This document shows positions 10,543 through 38,882 of a DNA stretch of 64,000 nucleotides, piece after piece. Source of the DNA: Methanomassiliicoccales archaeon (lineage in GTDB: Archaea > Thermoplasmatota > Thermoplasmata > Methanomassiliicoccales > UBA472); assembly GCA_013415865.1 (NCBI GenBank), contig CP058896.1:1035957-1099956 (forward strand), read 5' to 3'. A program made the translations under genes and the position numbers. Under the pieces are notes generated by a model that was not told the DNA's origin, did not search any database, and saw nothing but the letters and a program-made list of their open reading frames with translations. Position 1 is the stretch's first letter. Each line of letters starts with the position of its first letter.

Positions 10543-11427
10543 ATGGTGACCGCAAAGAAGGTTTGGGACGAGGTCAGGTCCTTCGTCATCACGATCGCCG
10601 TTTTCCTCATCATCATAGGGGCCCTGTTCCTCTACAGCGGGATATGGCCTCCGTTCGTGGTGGTCGAATCGGGCAGCATGCAGCATTCCGACGACAGGAG
10701 CAAAATTGGAATCATGGACACTGGAGACCTGATACTTGTCAGGGAGCTCGGCGAGGATGGTGGCATCGTCACTTATGTGGAAGGATATTCCACTGGATAC
10801 CGCACCTTCGGCGATTATGGGGACGTCGTCATGTACAAGCGGGATGGCACCGACCGCTTCACCCCGGTCATCCATAGGGCCATAGTACTTCTCGAGTTCA
10901 ATTCGACGTCGGGAAGCTACGATGTTCCTTCCTTGGCCAATCTCCCGAATGAAAAATGGTCCCACGATGGTGCATCAGATGGAAGATGGTGGGACCTTGA
11001 CGGCACGTTGTACATCTATGGCGTTGGTTACAAAAAAGAGACCTTGGAGATCCATCTTGACGACCTTCTATCTTATGGCCGAGGTGGTTACATCACCAAG
11101 GGCGACCACAATGATGTCATCGACCAGAACCCTCAGGCCCCCATCTCCACGGGGCCTGTCCTGGAAGAGTGGGTCATCGGGACCGCCAAGGCGGAGCTTC
11201 CTTGGTTCGGGCTGATCAAGCTATGGTTCTCTGGACAATATAGACCATATGGACCGGGGGTGCCCGATAATAGCTGGACGGCGTTGTTCCTGACCATAGC
11301 CCTCATGGTCCTAGTGCCGATCGCCGTTGAGGTTGGGGACGTGCTTTTGAAGCGGAGGGGGATAGACGTCGTTGCCAGGATAAGGTCAAAGGTGCCCTGG
11401 ACTAAAAAGAGGCCGAAGAGGCCCTGA
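10543..11427 (+). CDS. Signal peptidase I, archaeal/ER type (S26B)
   Basis: Membrane-bound protease that removes Sec signal peptides. One membrane span lies at residues 13-33. The catalytic Ser is in VVESGSMQHS just after it. The general base is His in PVIHRA, as in archaeal/ER enzymes rather than the bacterial Lys, and the YITKGDHNDVIDQ block carries the conserved Asp residues. A second span occurs near residues 245-265, followed by a basic tail. At 294 residues it is longer than minimal archaeal enzymes, mainly through an insertion before the His. A TATA-like AATATATC at about 10500 fits the start. It is convergent with orc1/cdc6 three bases downstream. Confidence 0.87.
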   Translation: MVTAKKVWDEVRSFVITIAVFLIIIGALFLYSGIWPPFVVVESGSMQHSDDRSKIGIMDTGDLILVRELGEDGGIVTYVEGYSTGYRTFGDYGDVVMYKRDGTDRFTPVIHRAIVLLEFNSTSGSYDVPSLANLPNEKWSHDGASDGRWWDLDGTLYIYGVGYKKETLEIHLDDLLSYGRGGYITKGDHNDVIDQNPQAPISTGPVLEEWVIGTAKAELPWFGLIKLWFSGQYRPYGPGVPDNSWTALFLTIALMVLVPIAVEVGDVLLKRRGIDVVARIRSKVPWTKKRPKRP

Positions 11428-11430
11428 TCG

Positions 11431-12669
11431 TCAGATCAATGTCGTCTGGTTCTTCGGTTTGTATTGCTTCAGCTCTTGGAAGATGTCATCCTCTTCCAGG
11501 ACCTTTTTTGTCTCGCTCAACGAGACGCTCAGGTCGATCTCCTTGGTGCGTCCGCCACGACCGAACGACTTCACCTTCGCATGGATTATCCCCATCATAT
11601 CGAGCTCTGAGATAAGGTCGGTTATGCGCCTCTGGGTCAGCTGCACCATCCCAAGGTGCCTGGCCATATCTCGATAGGTCTCATACACCTCCCCGGTCGT
11701 GAGCCTCTCGTTCCCCTTCTCCTCATTGAGGATGATGCACATCAATACCAGCTTCGACTGAGTGGGCAAGGTGCGTACCGCCTCCGACACGCAGTCGAGC
11801 TCCATCTTGTTCTTGGCCTTCAGGACATGCACGTCTGATATCCTTTCAGATCCTTCCCTTTCGGCGATCTCCCCAGAGATCCTCAGCAGGTCTAGCGCTT
11901 TTCTTGCATCGCCGTGCTCTTGGGCGGCCAAAGCCGCGCACAAGGGTATGACCCCCTCCTCAAGGACGTTGTCGTCGAATGCCAGAGCGGCCCTTTGCCT
12001 TAAGATGTCCTGAAGCTGTTCTGCGTTATACGGGGGGAATACCATCTTCTCCCCCTCCAAACGGCTTTTAACTCGGGGGTCAAGAAGGTCTGTGAAAAGA
12101 AGGTCGTTCGAGATCCCTATTACTGTCACCCTTGCGTTCTTCAGGTCATCATTGATCTTCGATAGATGATAGAGGACGTCGTCGCCGCTCTTATAGACGA
12201 GCTTATCGATCTCGTCAAGTGCGATTATTATCACTCTCCTCTGCTCATCGAGGTTGTCTCTCAGCATCTGGTAGACCTGCGTTATGCTCAATCCTGTGAA
12301 AGGTATCCGCTGCTCGAAGTCCTGGATGAACTGGTTGCCGATGTTCTGCAGAACGCCATATGGTGTATCGACCACCTCACAGTTCATATATATGAATGTG
12401 ACCTGGCCCTTGTCCGCATCGGCCTTCTTTATCTCGTTCCCGATGTATTTCACGCAGGCGGTCTTTCCTGTGCCGGTCTTTCCAAAGATCAGAATATTAG
12501 AGGGTCTCTCTCCCTTCAAAGCCGGAACAAGCACAGATGCAAGCGAGTTTATCTGCTCCTTTCTATGCGGCAGCTCACCAGGTATATAGGATGGCCTCAG
12601 AATCTCTCGGTTGCTCTTCTTGAATATCTGCTTCCTGTCCAGGTGTGCCTGGAATATATTTGGTTCCAT
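11431..12669 (-). CDS. Orc1/Cdc6 replication initiator
   Basis: AAA+ origin-binding protein. Walker A is FGKTGTGKT, Walker B IIIALDEID, and there is a C-terminal winged-helix domain (about the last 100 residues). The reading frame opens at 12747. I prefer the ATG at 12669 because the family N-terminus matches there (IFKKSNREILRPSYIPGELPHR) and GAGGTC sits seven bases upstream; the longer form would add 26 atypical residues. The gene runs away from the intergenic region with ORB-like elements, the usual arrangement for an archaeal origin. It would bind those elements and load MCM. Confidence 0.95.
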   Translation of the reverse strand: MEPNIFQAHLDRKQIFKKSNREILRPSYIPGELPHRKEQINSLASVLVPALKGERPSNILIFGKTGTGKTACVKYIGNEIKKADADKGQVTFIYMNCEVVDTPYGVLQNIGNQFIQDFEQRIPFTGLSITQVYQMLRDNLDEQRRVIIIALDEIDKLVYKSGDDVLYHLSKINDDLKNARVTVIGISNDLLFTDLLDPRVKSRLEGEKMVFPPYNAEQLQDILRQRAALAFDDNVLEEGVIPLCAALAAQEHGDARKALDLLRISGEIAEREGSERISDVHVLKAKNKMELDCVSEAVRTLPTQSKLVLMCIILNEEKGNERLTTGEVYETYRDMARHLGMVQLTQRRITDLISELDMMGIIHAKVKSFGRGGRTKEIDLSVSLSETKKVLEEDDIFQELKQYKPKNQTTLI

Positions 12670-12796
12670 CCTGATGACCTCTATGACGTCGAGCGCCCCG
12701 GCGAAAGCGTTTAGTTGATTTAAGAGGCTCGCAGAAGCGGAAATCATAGTAAGGGGTTGCCCAATAAAAAGGTAATTTTTATCGGGGCCATCGAAT

Positions 12797-12878
12797 TCGA
12801 CAGGAAACGCAGGTCTCTACTAATAAAATAGTAGGTATTCTGGCATCCAACCCCTACCCCTTCATTTCCACTAGAGAT
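12797..12878. other. Candidate replication origin with two inverted ORB-like elements
   Basis: Upstream of orc1/cdc6, the plus strand carries GACAGGAAACGCAGGTC (12799-12815). The minus strand carries AGTGGAAATGAAGGGG (12872-12857), extended by further Gs. Both resemble the archaeal origin recognition box core (purine-rich GGAAAC/TG followed by a G tract) and point towards each other. Between them lies an AT-rich block holding an 18-bp palindrome, a plausible unwinding element. Adjacency to the initiator gene is typical of archaeal origins. Function is inferred, not shown. Confidence 0.68.
12817..12834. repeat. 18-bp palindromic element, copy 1
   Basis: CTACTAATAAAATAGTAG, with six-base inverted arms around an AT core. 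It lies exactly between the two ORB-like elements. An identical 18-bp sequence occurs on the other strand at 33400-33417. The core could also serve as a TATA box for either strand. Confidence 0.6.
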
Positions 12879-12943
12879 GTGAACGTCTTTGGGCGTTGAA
12901 ACTTCATTATCGAAGAGGGGTATTGAGGAGACCGGGTGAGTGA

Positions 12944-14218
12944 TTGGAAGAAAGGACGGCCATCCTAAAGCGGGCGGCCTTGGTCAGCTTGGACCGCGAT
13001 GTCGATGAGGTAGAGGAGCTTGCTAGGACTGCTGGCTATGAGGTGGTGTACGAAATTGTGCAGAGGAGGAAGAGGCCTGAGCCTTCTCTATACATTGGGC
13101 GGGGCAAGGTCGAAGAAATAAAGGAGCTGTTGGCCGAAAGCCCTGTTGAGGCTATTATAATAAATGGAGAGGCGAAGCCGTCCCATCATTATAATCTGGA
13201 AAGTTTGCTGGGGGTGGAGTGTGTAGATAGGATAAGGTTGATCCTTGATATTTTCAAGACGAGGGCGAACAATAAAGAATCCAGACTTCAGGTTGAAAAG
13301 GCCAGATTAAAATATGAGGCCCCACTTTTGAAGGAGTGGATACATAGTGCAAAGGCCGGGGAGCACCCTGGCTTCATGGGAGGGGGTGAGTATGCCATCG
13401 ATGTTTACTATGATTTGATCAAAAAGAGGATCAAGAGCATCGACCGAGAGCTATCAGAGATGAGGAGGGTCTCAGATCAAAAGAGGAATAGAAGGGAAAG
13501 GAATGAACTTTTTATCGTCACGTTAACTGGATATACAAATGCCGGTAAATCCTCCTTGATGAGGGTGTTGACCAAAGAGGATGTTTTGGTTGAGGACAGA
13601 ATGTTCTCTACTCTATCAACCACAACAAGATCCTTGAGCGGGGAGGATATCCTCATCGTTGACACTATTGGGTTCATAAAGAACCTTCCTTACTTTATGA
13701 TAGAATCTTTTAGGAATACTATCGAAGAGGTCTTTTATTCTGATCTGGTGTTGCTAGTGATAGATTGCTCTGATCCGCTAGATGATCTGCGAAGGAAACT
13801 GAACGTATCTTTGGAGATTCTACTTCCAAGAATAGACAAAGAAAAGATAATTATTATATTAAATAAAATAGATAAGAAATCTAATAAAAATCAATACTTC
13901 GATATAGAGAACTTGATATTCCAATCGCTTGGTGATGTTGAGATTGTAAGAACCTCTGCAAAGGAAATGATTGGAATTGAAGAGCTTAAGGATAGGATCC
14001 AAGCAAGGTTCAAAAGGGACGTCTTTATCTCAGTATCTCTCCCAAATCTCCCAAATTCACAATCCAACGTCTCAAGGATCTTTGACCTCTGCGACGTTCT
14101 GTCGTGTGAATACTCGAAAAACATCACAATAAAAGGCAAATGCCATCTGGCAGATGTTGGAAAAATCGAGAAGATCGCTAAGGCATCAGGTGGAAGACGT
14201 CTAAGAGGAGAGAAATGA
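12944..14218 (+). CDS. hflX: HflX-family ribosome-associated GTPase
   Basis: 424-residue GTPase that binds the large ribosomal subunit and rescues or splits stalled ribosomes. The N-terminal HflX domain (about 1-175) includes the SLYIGRGKVEEI block. The G domain has G1 GYTNAGKSS, G2 TTTR, G3 DTIGF, G4 NKID and G5 SAK. Translation starts at TTG 12944, since an in-frame TGA lies just before it; GGTGA four bases upstream may guide it. The second half of the gene is far richer in A and T than its neighbours, with runs such as the ATTATATTAAATAAAATAG region near 13853. This suggests acquisition from another lineage or relaxed composition beside the origin. Confidence 0.92.
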   Translation: MEERTAILKRAALVSLDRDVDEVEELARTAGYEVVYEIVQRRKRPEPSLYIGRGKVEEIKELLAESPVEAIIINGEAKPSHHYNLESLLGVECVDRIRLILDIFKTRANNKESRLQVEKARLKYEAPLLKEWIHSAKAGEHPGFMGGGEYAIDVYYDLIKKRIKSIDRELSEMRRVSDQKRNRRERNELFIVTLTGYTNAGKSSLMRVLTKEDVLVEDRMFSTLSTTTRSLSGEDILIVDTIGFIKNLPYFMIESFRNTIEEVFYSDLVLLVIDCSDPLDDLRRKLNVSLEILLPRIDKEKIIIILNKIDKKSNKNQYFDIENLIFQSLGDVEIVRTSAKEMIGIEELKDRIQARFKRDVFISVSLPNLPNSQSNVSRIFDLCDVLSCEYSKNITIKGKCHLADVGKIEKIAKASGGRRLRGEK

Positions 14219-14257
14219 AATTAGGAAGCCTCTCCAATGGAAATAAAGGGGTCCCCC

Positions 14258-14692
14258 TTATTTCACGTCGAACTCCTTCTTTTTGTTCGCGACCTTTTCA
14301 TCGAATCTCGAAGGGAGGCGCCACGCAGTATATTCCAGCTCGTCCTTTATCGCAACAAACTCCTTCTTGCTCTTCACCGCCATCATCTTATTGAACGAGC
14401 GGACCCTTTTTACATATCCATAAAGAAGGAGAACCCCCGCCAAAAGAACGATGAAACCGATCGACACCAGATAATACCCCCACCCACCCACATCAAACAG
14501 TTCTGGCGCATAGAAGTCCAGGATCCCAAGCACGAACAGGAGAGCACCAAGCCCGATCAGCAGACAATCAAATGGAAGAGCATGCTCAACATAAACAGGC
14601 CTTGCCATGCCGACGCGAATCGACTTATCCCTATTCAAGATTTTCACTGGTAGTCTGATTGCATCCAACACGACCTTTCTGATAAAATCCAT
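14258..14692 (-). CDS. Two-span membrane protein of unknown function
   Basis: 144 residues from the ATG at 14692. A GTG nine codons upstream is possible but would overlap the divergent gene. Two hydrophobic helices (about residues 42-60 and 72-93) are followed by a charged cytoplasmic helix and a Lys-rich tail. I cannot assign a family with confidence; small two-span proteins of this kind occur in Thermoplasmata. It is divergent from the 14702 gene with only nine bases between starts, so each promoter must lie inside the other gene. Confidence 0.7.
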   Translation of the reverse strand: MDFIRKVVLDAIRLPVKILNRDKSIRVGMARPVYVEHALPFDCLLIGLGALLFVLGILDFYAPELFDVGGWGYYLVSIGFIVLLAGVLLLYGYVKRVRSFNKMMAVKSKKEFVAIKDELEYTAWRLPSRFDEKVANKKKEFDVK

Positions 14693-14701
14693 CGACCGTA
14701 T

Positions 14702-15064
14702 ATGACCCCCTCCAAACACCAGACCGCGCCGACCATCGCACTTGCCACACTCTCGGTCCTCGCCCTACTTTTGATCAGTGACATGGCCCCCCGCCAGGCC
14801 GACGACTTCGCCGATCTGCCCGCCGATGGGAAACCATTTGAGATCCTCTGCACGATAACCACGCAGAGGGATGCAAGGGGAGGCAAGCTCTTGGAGCTTA
14901 GGGACCAGGAGGGAGAGCTGATGAGAGCATATTGCCCAAACGGCACATGGGTCGATATCCAGCTTCCTTGCGTCGCCTACATCACCGGCCATCTGGACAA
15001 TGGCGCAGAGCCCTTTATGTTCATAGACGCGATCGAGCCTTGTGACAAGGCAAGTTTAATCTAA
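14702..15064 (+). CDS. Membrane-anchored OB-fold-like protein
   Basis: 120 residues. The N-terminus is hydrophobic (about residues 9-27) and looks like an anchor or uncleaved signal. The remainder is beta-rich (KPFEILCTITTQRD, KLLELRDQEGELMRAYCPNG, VAYITGHLDN), which resembles an OB fold such as nucleic-acid-binding stress proteins. It sits directly upstream of tiaS, about 30 bases before its start, in the same direction. Function unknown; the OB-fold reading is by pattern only. Confidence 0.62.
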   Translation: MTPSKHQTAPTIALATLSVLALLLISDMAPRQADDFADLPADGKPFEILCTITTQRDARGGKLLELRDQEGELMRAYCPNGTWVDIQLPCVAYITGHLDNGAEPFMFIDAIEPCDKASLI

Positions 15065-33977: not shown

Positions 33978-34489
33978 TACCTCTATTCGTCTACGATGAG
34001 AGGGACTGCGACCCTAGGAAATGCACATCCAGGAAGATGGTAAGGTTCAAGCTCGTCCAGGAGCTGAAAGGAATAAGGTCCGTCCCTTACGGGAGCATAG
34101 TCCTGAACCCCATGGCACAGAAGGCGCTGTCGCAAGAGGATAAGGAGAGGGCGCATCAGCATGGCATCGTCGTCCTGGACCTTTCCTGGGCGAACATCGA
34201 GAGACTGCCAGATCTTCCAGGGAATGTCGCGGAAAGGGCCCTTCCCTATATGCTCGCGGCCAACCCCGTCAATTGGGGGAGACCCTTCCGCCTGAGCAGC
34301 GTGGAAGCATTGGCCGCTTCCGTATACATATTGGGCGAGAAGAAACAGGCCGAGGCGCTTCTTTCAAAGTTCACGTGGGGCATGAACTTCCTCGACCTCA
34401 ACCGCGAGCCTCTTGAGAGGTACTCCAAGGCTAGGACGAGCGCGGAGGTGGTCGAGATACAGAACGAGTACCTGCCGGAGGAGGGGTGA
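33974..34489 (+). CDS. tsr3: Tsr3, 16S rRNA aminocarboxypropyltransferase
   Basis: 171 residues. It transfers the 3-amino-3-carboxypropyl group of SAM to a hypermodified pseudouridine of small-subunit rRNA. The DPRKCTSRKM motif near the N-terminus, VVLDLSWANIER, and the RALPYMLAANPVNWGRPFRLSSVEALAA block are characteristic. Length fits archaeal members. A GGAGG...CCTCC hairpin with a T-rich tail just after the stop (about 34494-34525) may terminate the transcript. Confidence 0.9.
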   Translation: MIPLFVYDERDCDPRKCTSRKMVRFKLVQELKGIRSVPYGSIVLNPMAQKALSQEDKERAHQHGIVVLDLSWANIERLPDLPGNVAERALPYMLAANPVNWGRPFRLSSVEALAASVYILGEKKQAEALLSKFTWGMNFLDLNREPLERYSKARTSAEVVEIQNEYLPEEG

Positions 34490-34568
34490 AAAGGAGGTCC
34501 CGCCCCCCTCCGTTTCTTCTGCTTCCTATGGAATCTGGCATGAAAATATTTTGACATCGAAAACATGC

Positions 34569-34584
34569 AGTGGAAATCAAGGTG
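34569..34584 (+). promoter_or_regulatory. ORB-like element upstream of the mcm promoter
   Basis: AGTGGAAATCAAGGTG differs at only two of 16 positions from the ORB-like AGTGGAAATGAAGGGG in the candidate origin at 12872-12857. It ends nine bases before the probable mcm TATA box GATATATA (34593-34600), so Orc1/Cdc6 could bind next to the mcm promoter. Confidence 0.5.
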
Positions 34585-34639
34585 CCAGCATTGATATATA
34601 CACTTTCGAGCATCTCCCTAAGCAAACGATATCAGCCCC

Positions 34640-34662
34640 GGTCACGAAGGGGGTTCGTGACC
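34640..34662. promoter_or_regulatory. 23-bp dyad in the mcm leader
   Basis: GGTCACGAA-GGGGG-TTCGTGACC, a perfect nine-base inverted repeat ending 14 bases before the mcm ATG. With the TATA box at 34593-34600 it lies in the transcribed leader. It may form an RNA hairpin or bind a repressor as DNA. Confidence 0.55.
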
Positions 34663-34676
34663 ATCGTTCAAAGGTG

Positions 34677-37600
34677 ATGATTTTGCCGATCAACTACAGT
34701 GACGAGGACCTCATCGCGCGCTGGGAGGAGTTCTTCGAGACCAGCGAGAACAGGCTCAAGGTTATGGAGGTGGCGGACCGATACCCAGAGGTAAGGAGCC
34801 TGTCGATATCCTACAACGACATCGACATGTTCGACCCCGACATGGCGTCACAGATGCTCGACGACCCTGACACCGTCCTCTCTATCGGGGAGAAGGCCAT
34901 CAAGAAGATCGTGCAGCAGGGCAAGAGCGGGGACATCAAGATACATCTCAGGGTCAAGGAGCTGCCGAAGCAGAGCAAGGTCGAGATAAGGCACCTTCGG
35001 AGCGAGCATCTGGGGAAGCTCATCTCCGTCGAAGGGCTGGTCAGGAAGGCGACCGAGGTCAGGCCGAAGATGACCGAGGCGCACTTCAAGTGCTTCCGTT
35101 GCCCTGCGGTCATCATCGAGCCCCAGGACGGGCTGTTCTTCAAGGAGCCGTTGGAATGCTACAAGGAACAGAACGGTTGCGGGAGGACCGCAGGCAGCAC
35201 CAAGTTCCTCCTTCTCGCCGAGGAGTCCAAGTACATCGACACGCAGAAGATAGAGATCCAGGAGAACCCAGAAGGGCTAAGGGGAGGGGCGCAGCCCGAA
35301 AGGCTCACCGGCTTCCTTGAGGACGACCTCGCTGGTAAGATATTCCCCGGCGACCGTGTCAGCCTGAACGGCGTACTGAGGTCCGTCCAGAAAGGGGAGA
35401 AGATCAAGTCGACCCTGTTCGACATCCACCTCGACGTGCTGTCCATCGAGTCCAAGGAACAGGAGTACGAGGACGTAGAGATCACCGAGGAGGACGAAAA
35501 GAGGATCATCGAGGAGGCGAGGAGCGAGGACATCTTCGAGAAGATCATCAAGTCCATATCCCCGACCATCAAAGGATATGACGAGGTGAAGGAATCGATC
35601 GCCCTCCAGCTCTTCGGCGGGACATCGAAGCAGCTGGACGACGGCACCAAGGTGAGGGGGGACATCCACATACTCCTCGTCGGTGACCCGGGCGTCGCAA
35701 AATGCGTCACCGGCGATGCGAAGGTCATGCTCGCCGACGGCTCGTCCAGGGCGATCAAGGAGATAGTGGAGGAAGGTCTGGCGAAAGGAGGCGCGAGACC
35801 TATCGACGACGGAGTCTATGCCGAGGTGGACATCCCCGTGCTTACGTTCTCTTGGATGGGGGCGGTCGAGCCAGGGAAGGCCACCAAGGTGTGGAAGAGG
35901 ACATCGCCCCCCAAGCTGCTCAGGTTCACGACCGCATCTGGAAGGAGCATCACCGTCACCCCGACCCACCCGCTGTTCGTGCAGAACGGGCCTTGGATAG
36001 CCGCGAGATACGCAAGGCACATCTACAAGGGCCAGGCGATCGCAATCGCGACCGGACCAGGGAAGAGGGGGCACGACGAGACCTTAGGGAAACAGAGAGG
36101 TCTCGACTGGGACACGGTGACGGAGATAGAGGAGGTGGACCCGCCAGAGCCGTACGTCTACGACCTCGAGGTCGACACCACGCACATCTTCATCGCCAAC
36201 GAGATCATCAACCACAACAGCCAGATGCTACGTTACATGTCACATCTCGCGCCTAGGGGCATCTACGCCTCCGGCAAATCATCATCCGCCGCGGGCCTAT
36301 GCGTCGCGCCGGATACAAAGATAGAGGTAGACGGCGAGGAGGTCATGATAGGGGATTTCGTCGAGGGGATGATGAAGGACCCCGTCGAGGTCGAGAAGGG
36401 GGAATGGAAGCAGGACGTCCATGTGAATGGTGTTAAGACGATGGCGGAAGGGGGCTCGACATCGACGAACCCCGTAGTGTCTGTCTTTCGTCTGACAACC
36501 CCTTCATTTCTCGTGGAGATAACCTCATCCAGCAAAAAGAAGGTGAGATTGACCGGGGAGACAAGGCTCTACACAAGATCAGGGGGCAAGGAGTCATGGA
36601 CCAGGGCCTTTGACATCCTAGAGGACGACGAGGTCCTGACCTGCGATAAAGGCTCGGGGCCCGTCTGGGAGAAGGTGGTCAACAAAAGGCTGGTCACAAA
36701 GAACCTTCCTAAGAACGTCTACGACCTCACCGTGAAGGACGCCCACTGCTTCTTCGCGAACGGTTTCCTCGTGCACAACACGGCCGCGGCCGTCAAGGAC
36801 GAGTTCGGGGAAGGAAGATGGACCCTGGAGGCCGGCGCCCTGGTCCTGGCCGACAGGGGCATCGCCGCCATCGACGAGCTCGACAAGATGACGGAACAGG
36901 ACAGGAGCTCCATGCACGAGGCGATGGAGAGCCAATGTTACGACGATGGAACAGAGGTCCTTACCAACGAGGGTTGGAAGTTCTTCAAGGACCTTAACGG
37001 TCAAGAGAAGATCGCATCTCTGGATAAAGAGGGACATATCGAGTTTGTCGAGGCCACCAACCGTTTCGAATACGATTATGATGGCGAGCTTTACCATATT
37101 CGTTCCAGACAGGTAGATCTGTTGGTGACGCCGAACCACAGGATGTATGTCAATGTGAACAAGAGGGCCGACGAGTTCTTGGGTTTCAAGCTCATCGAGA
37201 TGAAGGACATACCAAAAAGCCGACGTTTCAAGTTCAAGAAGAACGGAATCTGGCAGGGGGTTGAGAGGGAGGTTTTTTTGATCCCATCAGTGATCAAATA
37301 CGGCAATCAGAGACCTTCTAGTGCAAAGGAGACAGAACCGATCGTTGTCAAGATGGATGACTGGCTCGAATTCTTAGGTTACTTCCTATCCGAGGGGTCG
37401 GTCCAATTCAAGGGAAAGGTGCCCTATCGGGTCAACATCACTCAGGTGAAACACGAAGACAAGGTCTATAAGATCGAGGATTGCATCCAAAGGTTGGGCT
37501 TCAAGTATAATTACGATACGCATAACTTTTCAATATCCAACAAGCAGCTGGCATCATACCTGTCCCAATTTGGAAAGGTCAATGAGAAATTTGTGCCGAG

Positions 37601-38882
37601 GGATATACTTGAGCTCTCGCCAAGGCAGCTCAGGATCCTCCTTGAGGCCCTGATGCTTGGTGATGGTTGCTGTGGAAAAACAAATCACCACAGGCTCTAC
37701 TGCACCTCATCCAGGCAGCTTGCGGACGATGTTCAGGAGATCGCGCTCAAGATCGGCGTAAGCGCGAACATCAGATTGGCCTACAAAGCTGGTAAGGAGA
37801 GGAAGATCAAAGGTAGTACTATCAAGTCGAGACACGACCACTATCACATTTCTCTTCTAGAAAGTTATGGGAGGAACTCCAACGAACCAATGGTAAATGC
37901 CTTGGAGAACAGGATGGAGCAGATCAAGAAGGTCCATTATACGGGCAAGGTCTACTGCGTCGAGGTCCCGAACCACATCATATATGTGCGCAGGAACGGA
38001 AAGCCGGTCTGGTGTGGAAATTCCGTATCGGTCGCGAAGGCCGGGATCACCGCGACATTGCAGACCAGGACCTGCGTCCTCGGCGCAGCTAACCCGAAAT
38101 ACGGCCGCTTTGACGAGAACGAGCCTTTAGCAAACCAGATAGACATGCCCCCCGCCCTGCTCTCCAGGTTCGACCTGATCTTCGCGCTCCTGGACAAGCC
38201 GAACCAGGAGAAGGACATGAAGATAGCTGACCATATAATCAAAGGGCACACCAGGGGGGCGGCGATGAAGCAGATGTCGTCCGGCCAGGTGGAGGGCATA
38301 GACATTGACGAGATTATGGCCGAGACCGAGTCCTTCAAGCCCTACTTCGAGGCGGACTTCATCCGCAAGTATGTCAAGTACGCGAAGAGGGTCACGCCTG
38401 TGCTCAGCAAGGACGCGCAGAAATTGATACTGGACACATATCTTTCCATACGCAAGATGGGCGAAGGCCCGAACGCTTCTGTGCCCATCACCGCGCGCCA
38501 GCTCGAGGCCTTCATCCGTCTTAGCGAGGCATCGGCCCGCATCCGTCTGAGCCCGGTGGTCACGAAGGAGGACGCTCAGCGCGCGGTCCGCATCGTCCGC
38601 TACTACCTCGAGAAGATGGCCAAGGACTCCGGACAGATGGACGTGGACAAGCTAATGACCGGCACGACCAGGACCGAAAGGAACAAGATCTCCATCGTCC
38701 GCACCATCATCCACGAGAACTCCGACCCGCACAAGGGGGCCCCCGAGCACGTCCTTGTCGAGAGGGCCGCCGCCAGGAACATCAGCGAGCAGGAGCTGAA
38801 GGAGGTCCTCAAGAAGATGAAGAGCGCAGGGGAAATCTACGAGTCCCAGAGCGGCTATGTCAAGTTCGTGGGCAACGATTGA
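34677..38882 (+). CDS. mcm: Replicative helicase MCM precursor with three inteins
   Basis: The 1401-residue precursor would splice to about 707 residues, the normal MCM length. From ATG 34677: the N-terminal domain with zinc ligands CFRCP...C...CG (about residues 112-160), the OB fold, then the AAA+ core. Walker A GDPGVAK/S is split by intein 1, GLTAA... by intein 2, and the MESQ/SVSVAKAG region by intein 3. Walker B is GIAAIDELDKM, the arginine finger region LLSRFDLIF, and a C-terminal winged helix follows. The frame is open upstream, but family similarity begins at MILPINYSDED. The ORB-like element and leader dyad upstream may control it. Confidence 0.95.
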   Translation: MILPINYSDEDLIARWEEFFETSENRLKVMEVADRYPEVRSLSISYNDIDMFDPDMASQMLDDPDTVLSIGEKAIKKIVQQGKSGDIKIHLRVKELPKQSKVEIRHLRSEHLGKLISVEGLVRKATEVRPKMTEAHFKCFRCPAVIIEPQDGLFFKEPLECYKEQNGCGRTAGSTKFLLLAEESKYIDTQKIEIQENPEGLRGGAQPERLTGFLEDDLAGKIFPGDRVSLNGVLRSVQKGEKIKSTLFDIHLDVLSIESKEQEYEDVEITEEDEKRIIEEARSEDIFEKIIKSISPTIKGYDEVKESIALQLFGGTSKQLDDGTKVRGDIHILLVGDPGVAKCVTGDAKVMLADGSSRAIKEIVEEGLAKGGARPIDDGVYAEVDIPVLTFSWMGAVEPGKATKVWKRTSPPKLLRFTTASGRSITVTPTHPLFVQNGPWIAARYARHIYKGQAIAIATGPGKRGHDETLGKQRGLDWDTVTEIEEVDPPEPYVYDLEVDTTHIFIANEIINHNSQMLRYMSHLAPRGIYASGKSSSAAGLCVAPDTKIEVDGEEVMIGDFVEGMMKDPVEVEKGEWKQDVHVNGVKTMAEGGSTSTNPVVSVFRLTTPSFLVEITSSSKKKVRLTGETRLYTRSGGKESWTRAFDILEDDEVLTCDKGSGPVWEKVVNKRLVTKNLPKNVYDLTVKDAHCFFANGFLVHNTAAAVKDEFGEGRWTLEAGALVLADRGIAAIDELDKMTEQDRSSMHEAMESQCYDDGTEVLTNEGWKFFKDLNGQEKIASLDKEGHIEFVEATNRFEYDYDGELYHIRSRQVDLLVTPNHRMYVNVNKRADEFLGFKLIEMKDIPKSRRFKFKKNGIWQGVEREVFLIPSVIKYGNQRPSSAKETEPIVVKMDDWLEFLGYFLSEGSVQFKGKVPYRVNITQVKHEDKVYKIEDCIQRLGFKYNYDTHNFSISNKQLASYLSQFGKVNEKFVPRDILELSPRQLRILLEALMLGDGCCGKTNHHRLYCTSSRQLADDVQEIALKIGVSANIRLAYKAGKERKIKGSTIKSRHDHYHISLLESYGRNSNEPMVNALENRMEQIKKVHYTGKVYCVEVPNHIIYVRRNGKPVWCGNSVSVAKAGITATLQTRTCVLGAANPKYGRFDENEPLANQIDMPPALLSRFDLIFALLDKPNQEKDMKIADHIIKGHTRGAAMKQMSSGQVEGIDIDEIMAETESFKPYFEADFIRKYVKYAKRVTPVLSKDAQKLILDTYLSIRKMGEGPNASVPITARQLEAFIRLSEASARIRLSPVVTKEDAQRAVRIVRYYLEKMAKDSGQMDVDKLMTGTTRTERNKISIVRTIIHENSDPHKGAPEHVLVERAAARNISEQELKEVLKKMKSAGEIYESQSGYVKFVGND
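35703..36218 (+). other. Intein 1 in MCM Walker A (172 residues, mini-intein)
   Basis: Starts at Cys (CVTGDAKVMLADG) directly after GDPGVAK and ends IINHN before Ser-Gln of the extein. Block B TPTHPLF with its His, and block F YDLEVDTTHIFIAN, are present. No LAGLIDADG motifs fit in 172 residues, so it lacks a homing endonuclease. Splicing restores GDPGVAKSQ, so helicase activity requires it. Confidence 0.92.
36300..36779 (+). other. Intein 2 in MCM (160 residues, mini-intein, altered block B)
   Basis: Starts with Cys (CVAPDTKIEVDG) after SSSAAGL and ends FFANGFLVHN before Thr-Ala-Ala. The block B region reads RLTGETRLYT where TxxH is expected, so the usual catalytic His is Thr. The block F segment YDLTVKDAHCFFAN looks normal. 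There is no endonuclease domain. Confidence 0.9.
36936..38021 (+). other. Intein 3 in MCM (362 residues, with LAGLIDADG endonuclease)
   Basis: Starts with Cys (CYDDGTEVLTNEGW) after HEAMESQ. Block B is VTPNHRMYV. A dodecapeptide-type homing endonuclease has FLGYFLSEGS and LLEALMLGDG as its two acidic motifs. It ends VWCGN before Ser-Val-Ser, with Gly instead of the usual penultimate His. Parts of the coding sequence are more AT-rich than the exteins, which fits later arrival. Confidence 0.92.

Follow-up and report, generated by a model that had tools for sequence, protein, structure and literature searches.

The locus described here comprises a signal-peptidase-like gene, an orc1/cdc6.1 initiator gene, hflX (encoding the GTPase HflX), and a small conserved gene convergent with hflX, together with two strong origin recognition boxes (ORBs) that enclose hflX (Table 1). 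It lies in a window of 64 kb, the whole stretch of DNA that was analyzed (64,000 nucleotides; G000:C1:1035957-1099956), on the single-contig, 1,818,080-bp chromosome (99.8% complete) of an uncultured methanogen-related archaeon of the order Methanomassiliicoccales. The named relatives are likewise Methanomassiliicoccales assemblies.

Table 1. Features of the orc1-hflX locus, in window coordinates
Feature	Position	Strand	Basis or remarks
Signal-peptidase-like gene, conserved oriC1 neighborhood	10543..11427	+	weak, sub-cutoff TIGR02228 match; position kept in relatives
orc1/cdc6.1 initiator gene	11431..12669	-	NCBIfam NF001625, 575.9 bits (cutoff 501); Pfam Cdc6_C, Cdc6_lid
AT-rich block of the first-pass annotation	12741..12840		62% AT in 100 bp; 12th least stable 100-bp segment of the window
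Degenerate ORB-like box in opposite orientation (left box of the first-pass annotation)	12798..12816	+	3 mismatches; partly conserved in G004 and G002
Left ORB, TCTAGTGGAAATGAAGGGGT (right box of the first-pass annotation)	12856..12875	-	1 mismatch; G-tract towards orc1; conserved in all near relatives
hflX (GTPase HflX), enclosed by the ORB pair	12944..14218	+	TIGR03156, 290.2 bits (cutoff 216.75)
Candidate unwinding zone in the hflX coding sequence	13806..13955		least stable 150 bp of the window; nearest-neighbor stability scan
Right ORB, TCCAATGGAAATAAAGGGGT	14233..14252	+	1 mismatch; G-tract away from hflX, then CCCCC
Small conserved gene, right flank, convergent with hflX	14258..14719	-	tblastn synteny in relatives

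Initiator gene and origin recognition boxes

The first-pass annotation had placed a pair of boxes in the gap upstream of an orc1/cdc6 gene. That gene is genuine, as judged from its NCBIfam and Pfam matches and from the solved chains nearest to its product, 2qby_A and 2v1u_A, whose entries we take to be origin-DNA complexes of Orc1 homologues. The open frame runs to 12747, and relatives align from residue 26-27; because the similarity begins there, the start is probably Met27 (12669), and the N-terminal extension (12669-12747) is probably not coding. No Pfam family was found for the small gene at the right flank. The order of genes is that of haloarchaeal oriC1, GTP-binding protein, cdc6, and signal peptidase (PMC4010727).

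The chromosome was searched with the common motif of Ori-Finder 2, TCCA[CG]T[TG]GAAA[TC][GA]AAGGGGT (PMC4164010), which is independent of this sequence. Only four sites in the 1.82 Mb have three or fewer mismatches, and the two best are the ORBs on either side of hflX; about 0.003 sites with at most one mismatch are expected on both strands, versus the two that were found, 1.4 kb apart. Both have the GGAAA core followed by a G-tract. They point outward, with the G-tracts away from each other, and stand 1.38 kb apart with the whole of hflX between them, rather than close together in a single intergenic region. The right ORB sits between the hflX stop codon and the convergent gene, and its GGGGTCCCCC extension is conserved at this position.

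Both box strings named in the first-pass annotation occur in the orc1-hflX gap at the coordinates and on the strands that it had reported, but they differ in quality. The minus-strand box is the strong left ORB, whereas the plus-strand box (12798-12816) is weak, with mismatches mostly in its G-tract, and about two other sites in the window reach the same level. Its core, GAATTCGACAGGAAACG, is partly conserved in two near relatives, in one of which (G004) the G-tract is complete; it may represent an additional box, oriented the opposite way, that has decayed. The stronger ORB beyond hflX had been overlooked.

A second orc1/cdc6 paralog, cdc6.2 (0.995 Mb; L002, G000:C1:995053-996147), lies 52 kb away on the opposite strand and shares 32% identity with the first. 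The annotation had allowed that a better ORB cluster might adjoin another paralog, but no ORB occurs within 1.5 kb of cdc6.2. A weak site at G000 986393 (three mismatches, 8.6 kb from cdc6.2) was rejected as an origin.

Conservation of the outward pair in relatives

Loci were fetched from relatives and all copies were oriented alike before comparison. The shared order is signal peptidase (+), orc1 (-), one or two ORBs (-), hflX (+), one ORB (+), the small gene (-), and tiaS (+), and the layout with ORBs on either side of hflX is kept in dozens of relatives. At two or fewer mismatches, 83 ORBs occur in 32 related loci (278 kb). The orc1-hflX gap holds 50 on the minus strand versus 2 on the plus strand; directly after hflX there are 30 on the plus strand and none on the minus strand, and one ORB lies elsewhere. 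Altogether, 80 of the 83 are either on the minus strand to the left of hflX or on the plus strand to its right. The extension that follows the box is GGGGTGGGG on the left and GGGGTCCCCC on the right. When 41 whole genomes were searched with the ORB pattern, it was present in 38, and the reversed-pattern control gave 0 matches in the 41; further matches in these genomes are mostly one repeated site, TCCACAAGAAATGAAGGGGT or near it.

Some matches were set aside. A third ORB-like match in the window (36498-36517, minus strand), which is the site that recurs as TCCACAAGAAATGAAGGGGT or near it, was dropped from the counts because it falls within intein coding sequence of the MCM helicase gene (34413-38882, plus strand), which is interrupted by inteins; this 20-mer recurs nearly unchanged in many relatives, some 20 to 30 kb from the origin where the two share a contig. 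Apparent right-hand ORBs in loci L086-L088 were rejected because they are inside a gcvT-like coding sequence (gcvT being named from the translation).

These counts bear on the anatomy proposed in the first-pass annotation, in which the convergent boxes 12798-12816 (+) and 12856-12875 (-), around the AT-rich block at 12.8 kb, form the functional origin. Both boxes exist, and the left one retains part of its core in G004 and G002. However, that box has three mismatches, the gap boxes of relatives are almost all on the minus strand, and their partner is in 30 of 30 cases the plus-strand box beyond hflX; moreover, the block between the convergent boxes is only moderately AT-rich. Published oriC1 pairs are also oriented the other way. 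In Haloarcula oriC1, read on one strand, the left G-string is CCCCCC and the right is GGGGGGGG, so that the G-tracts face outward (PMC3936714), and the ORB orientations listed for Ca. M. intestinalis and Ca. M. alvus are outward as well (PMC4153887). Given the outward G-tracts of Haloarcula oriC1, 12856-12875 (-) and 14233-14252 (+) form the canonical outward pair and the convergent boxes do not. We consider it very unlikely that the convergent pair is the functional origin, and probable that the two outer boxes are the working pair.

The ORB pair persists while the content that it encloses changes. In G026 (L064), where hflX is missing from the locus, the ORBs homologous to the left and right boxes carry the same extension signatures as those boxes do elsewhere and are 275 bp apart, separated by an extremely AT-rich gap; this arrangement is a textbook compact origin. 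In G024 (L065), hflX is inverted and the outward bracket of ORBs is retained; this locus has one more ORB, within the tiaS region. Members of family f2 have no hflX at the locus, and there outward ORBs bracket orc1. Family f20 has ORBs on both sides of hflX, while its orc1 is carried by a separate contig and has no ORB within 1.5 kb; in loci L167, L168, L171, and L176 of this family, the apparent origin is thus apart from the initiator gene.

A different function for the boxes can be weighed against this record. They could serve orc1, hflX, and the gene convergent with hflX as regulatory or terminator elements bound by Orc1, with replication starting elsewhere. One box does lie in the promoter gap of orc1, and the second is located between two convergent genes, where it is accompanied by a GGGGTCCCC palindrome. 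Against this, both boxes match the full origin-recognition consensus, including the TCCA-GGAAA dyad, the motif is rare genome-wide, the pair outlasts loss or inversion of hflX, and the bin that holds the locus is an extremum of skew and gene-strand bias (see below). We regard a purely regulatory role as highly improbable.

Base composition and strand asymmetry

The AT-rich block at 12.8 kb on which the first-pass annotation relied is only moderately AT-rich (Table 1), and it probably includes the orc1 promoter, judging by a TTTTTATC element. Whether 60, 100, or 150 bp are considered, the stretch of lowest stability in the window is instead within hflX, in a zone that is 74% AT with a core of 88% AT over 60 bp. 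This AT-rich element between the ORBs is outstanding only locally and not unique genome-wide, as 33 segments equally unstable occur in an 800-kb chromosome sample; the GC content of the bracket is in the lowest 5%. In 28 of 28 bracketed loci, which represent 13 genera and 4 families and are not independent, the least stable 100 bp are inside the ORB bracket, which accounts for roughly one-fifth to one-third of the DNA. Their place within it varies: they are within hflX or on either side of it, being right-hand (in or just after hflX) in this window, in near relatives, and in genus g2, and in the orc1-hflX gap, just inside the left box, in several genomes of family f6.

Third codon positions of the enclosed gene show the same bias. 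The GC content at these positions (GC3) of hflX is 0.49, the lowest value among the neighboring open frames that were measured in the window (mean, 0.75), and in 28 of 28 bracketed loci both orc1 and tiaS have a higher GC3 than hflX. In family f2, where orc1 is the bracketed gene, orc1 has a lower GC3 than tiaS in all five loci (mean of -0.19 versus +0.02 elsewhere), and in five of five class-level genomes in which no ORBs adjoin hflX, the gene is not GC3-poor. Family f24 is the exception, as its ORBs lie around hflX plus a neighbor, yet there is no GC3 deficit; in loci L174, L178, L179, L181, and L182 of this family, ORBs stand beside hflX or around hflX together with the small neighbor, and hflX is GC3-rich.

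The chief rival to an origin that spans hflX is a compact one, with initiation confined to the gap between orc1 and hflX, where Orc1 would sit on the left box or boxes. The box beyond hflX would then serve as an accessory site for Orc1, for instance by titrating it, a role that has been suggested for the region rich in ORBs downstream of Haloarcula oriC2. Regulation by downstream ORBs has a precedent in Haloarcula oriC2D (PMC3936714), in many relatives the gap contains a pair of minus-strand ORBs spaced by about 150 bp, and the f6 genomes just mentioned have their least stable DNA there. On the other hand, the gap boxes share one strand and therefore provide no inverted pair, while the right box is single and fixed in position and strand in 30 of 30 relatives. 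Where hflX is missing (G026), the right box pairs with the left as a compact outward pair. The least stable DNA of the window is right-hand, as it also is in near relatives and in genus g2. Initiation confined to the gap seems unlikely, if a good deal less so than the two readings considered above.

Chromosome-wide asymmetry was assessed on a sample of 40 stretches of 20 kb each, evenly spaced and covering 44% of the chromosome. GC skew had been put forward in the first-pass annotation as a check on its origin. Plain GC skew has no extremum at the locus in this sample. As it is confounded by gene strand, we used strand-corrected third-position skew, and the cumulative GC3 skew has its maximum in the bin at 1,035-1,055 kb, with a range reached by 0 of 5,000 permutations. 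The minimum of this skew falls at about 0-200 kb, near the antipode, which is at 140 kb. Gene-strand bias is lowest in the bin of the skew maximum (p about 0.01), so that both extrema share one 45-kb bin, the one that holds the locus; AT3 skew also has its minimum there, though not significantly. The polarity of the skew is opposite to that of bacteria, and in G089 and G051, which are more distant genomes, the skew is not significant. In the sampled chromosome, strand asymmetry switches in the bin of the locus, at a resolution of only about 0.2 Mb. Because bootstrapped positions of the GC3-skew maximum spread over about 0.95-1.2 Mb, the skew supports the region only and does not separate the locus from cdc6.2 at 0.995 Mb; it is the motif evidence, that is, the lack of any ORB near cdc6.2, by which cdc6.2 is excluded as the origin.

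The central claim of the first-pass annotation, that this is oriC, is well supported: the locus has the two best ORBs of the chromosome, the gene order of oriC1, and the shared extremum of skew and gene-strand bias. We conclude that it is very likely the main chromosomal origin (oriC1) of this archaeon, at which initiation is predicted to take place.

A proposed gene-enclosing origin and its meaning

We read the locus as a gene-enclosing variant of archaeal oriC1. We call it a variant since close ORB spacing within one intergenic region is usual in described origins and not essential to the definition. The best explanation of the whole is an oriC1 whose outward ORB pair, 12856-12875 (-) and 14233-14252 (+), encloses hflX, and we assign it a probability of roughly 0.6. 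From these features we infer how initiation might proceed. Orc1/Cdc6.1 would bind both outward ORBs with a fixed polarity, like its homologue in Sulfolobus (PMC12141716), and from each outer box would direct or load MCM inward, so that two loaded helicases would meet or work independently over about 1.4 kb. Melting would start in AT-rich DNA between the boxes, for which the 3' third of hflX (13.8-13.95 kb) is the most likely place; that it lies inside hflX is a tentative proposal, to which we give somewhat less than even odds. The main doubts about this mechanism concern the long spacing, transcription of hflX through the zone, and a finding from Haloarcula, where a locus with single ORBs flanking cdc6D had no plasmid-replicating activity (PMC3528665).

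Comparison with known origins places the locus among familiar elements. It shares with haloarchaeal oriC1 (Haloarcula hispanica and Halobacterium NRC-1) the ORB sequence, the outward pair, and a position of the origin between the gene for the GTP-binding protein and cdc6, followed by the signal peptidase gene (PMC4010727, PMC3936714), whereas the haloarchaeal ORBs flank a short intergenic AT-rich region and not a whole gene. In Sulfolobus oriC1 (ORB3-DUE-ORB2), inverted ORBs likewise flank an AT-rich element and Orc1-1 directs MCM between them, but that origin is intergenic and measures 130 bp in all, so that the spacing of 1.38 kb seen here is about ten times as long (PMC12141716). The oriC of Thermococcales resembles the locus in that ORBs occur within or past a gene adjoining the origin; its ORB and mini-ORB repeats are inside the gene for polymerase DP1 and do not form an outward pair enclosing it (PMC2643942).

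The locus had already been named as the origin for this order (Borrel et al. 2014, PMC4153887; ISO4-H5, PMC5011839), and the origins predicted there agree with ours in ORB consensus and in the orc1/cdc6.1 neighborhood. As far as the accessible parts of these papers go, the pairs are listed only as near orc1, with the ORBs of Ca. M. alvus on both sides of that gene (PMC4153887), and we found no mention in them of an ORB beyond hflX, of a gene-bracketing rule, or of an AT bias in the enclosed gene. A literature search on hflX with orc1 and archaea returned nothing; subscription literature was mostly outside the search. The identification of the locus as an origin is therefore a prior prediction, and the ORB beyond hflX, the bracketing of a gene, and the AT bias of that gene are apparently new.

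With more reservation than for the locus itself, we suggest that much of the class Thermoplasmata may use an ORB pair about 1.4-2.4 kb apart, in which the enclosed gene (hflX, or orc1 where hflX was lost) would be an AT-enriched unwinding zone, two Orc1-MCM loading sites would act at a distance, and coding sequence would be selected for melting. If the ORB pair works across a gene, tight spacing of ORBs is not needed in archaeal origins, models of paired MCM loading must permit action at about 1.4 kb, and a coding sequence has been shaped by a role in DNA melting. The relatives form a natural series, with hflX inside the pair, inverted, or lost from a compact origin, with orc1 inside, or with the origin apart from orc1, which makes origin spacing and content directly testable and would aid the prediction of origins in this order of gut methanogens.
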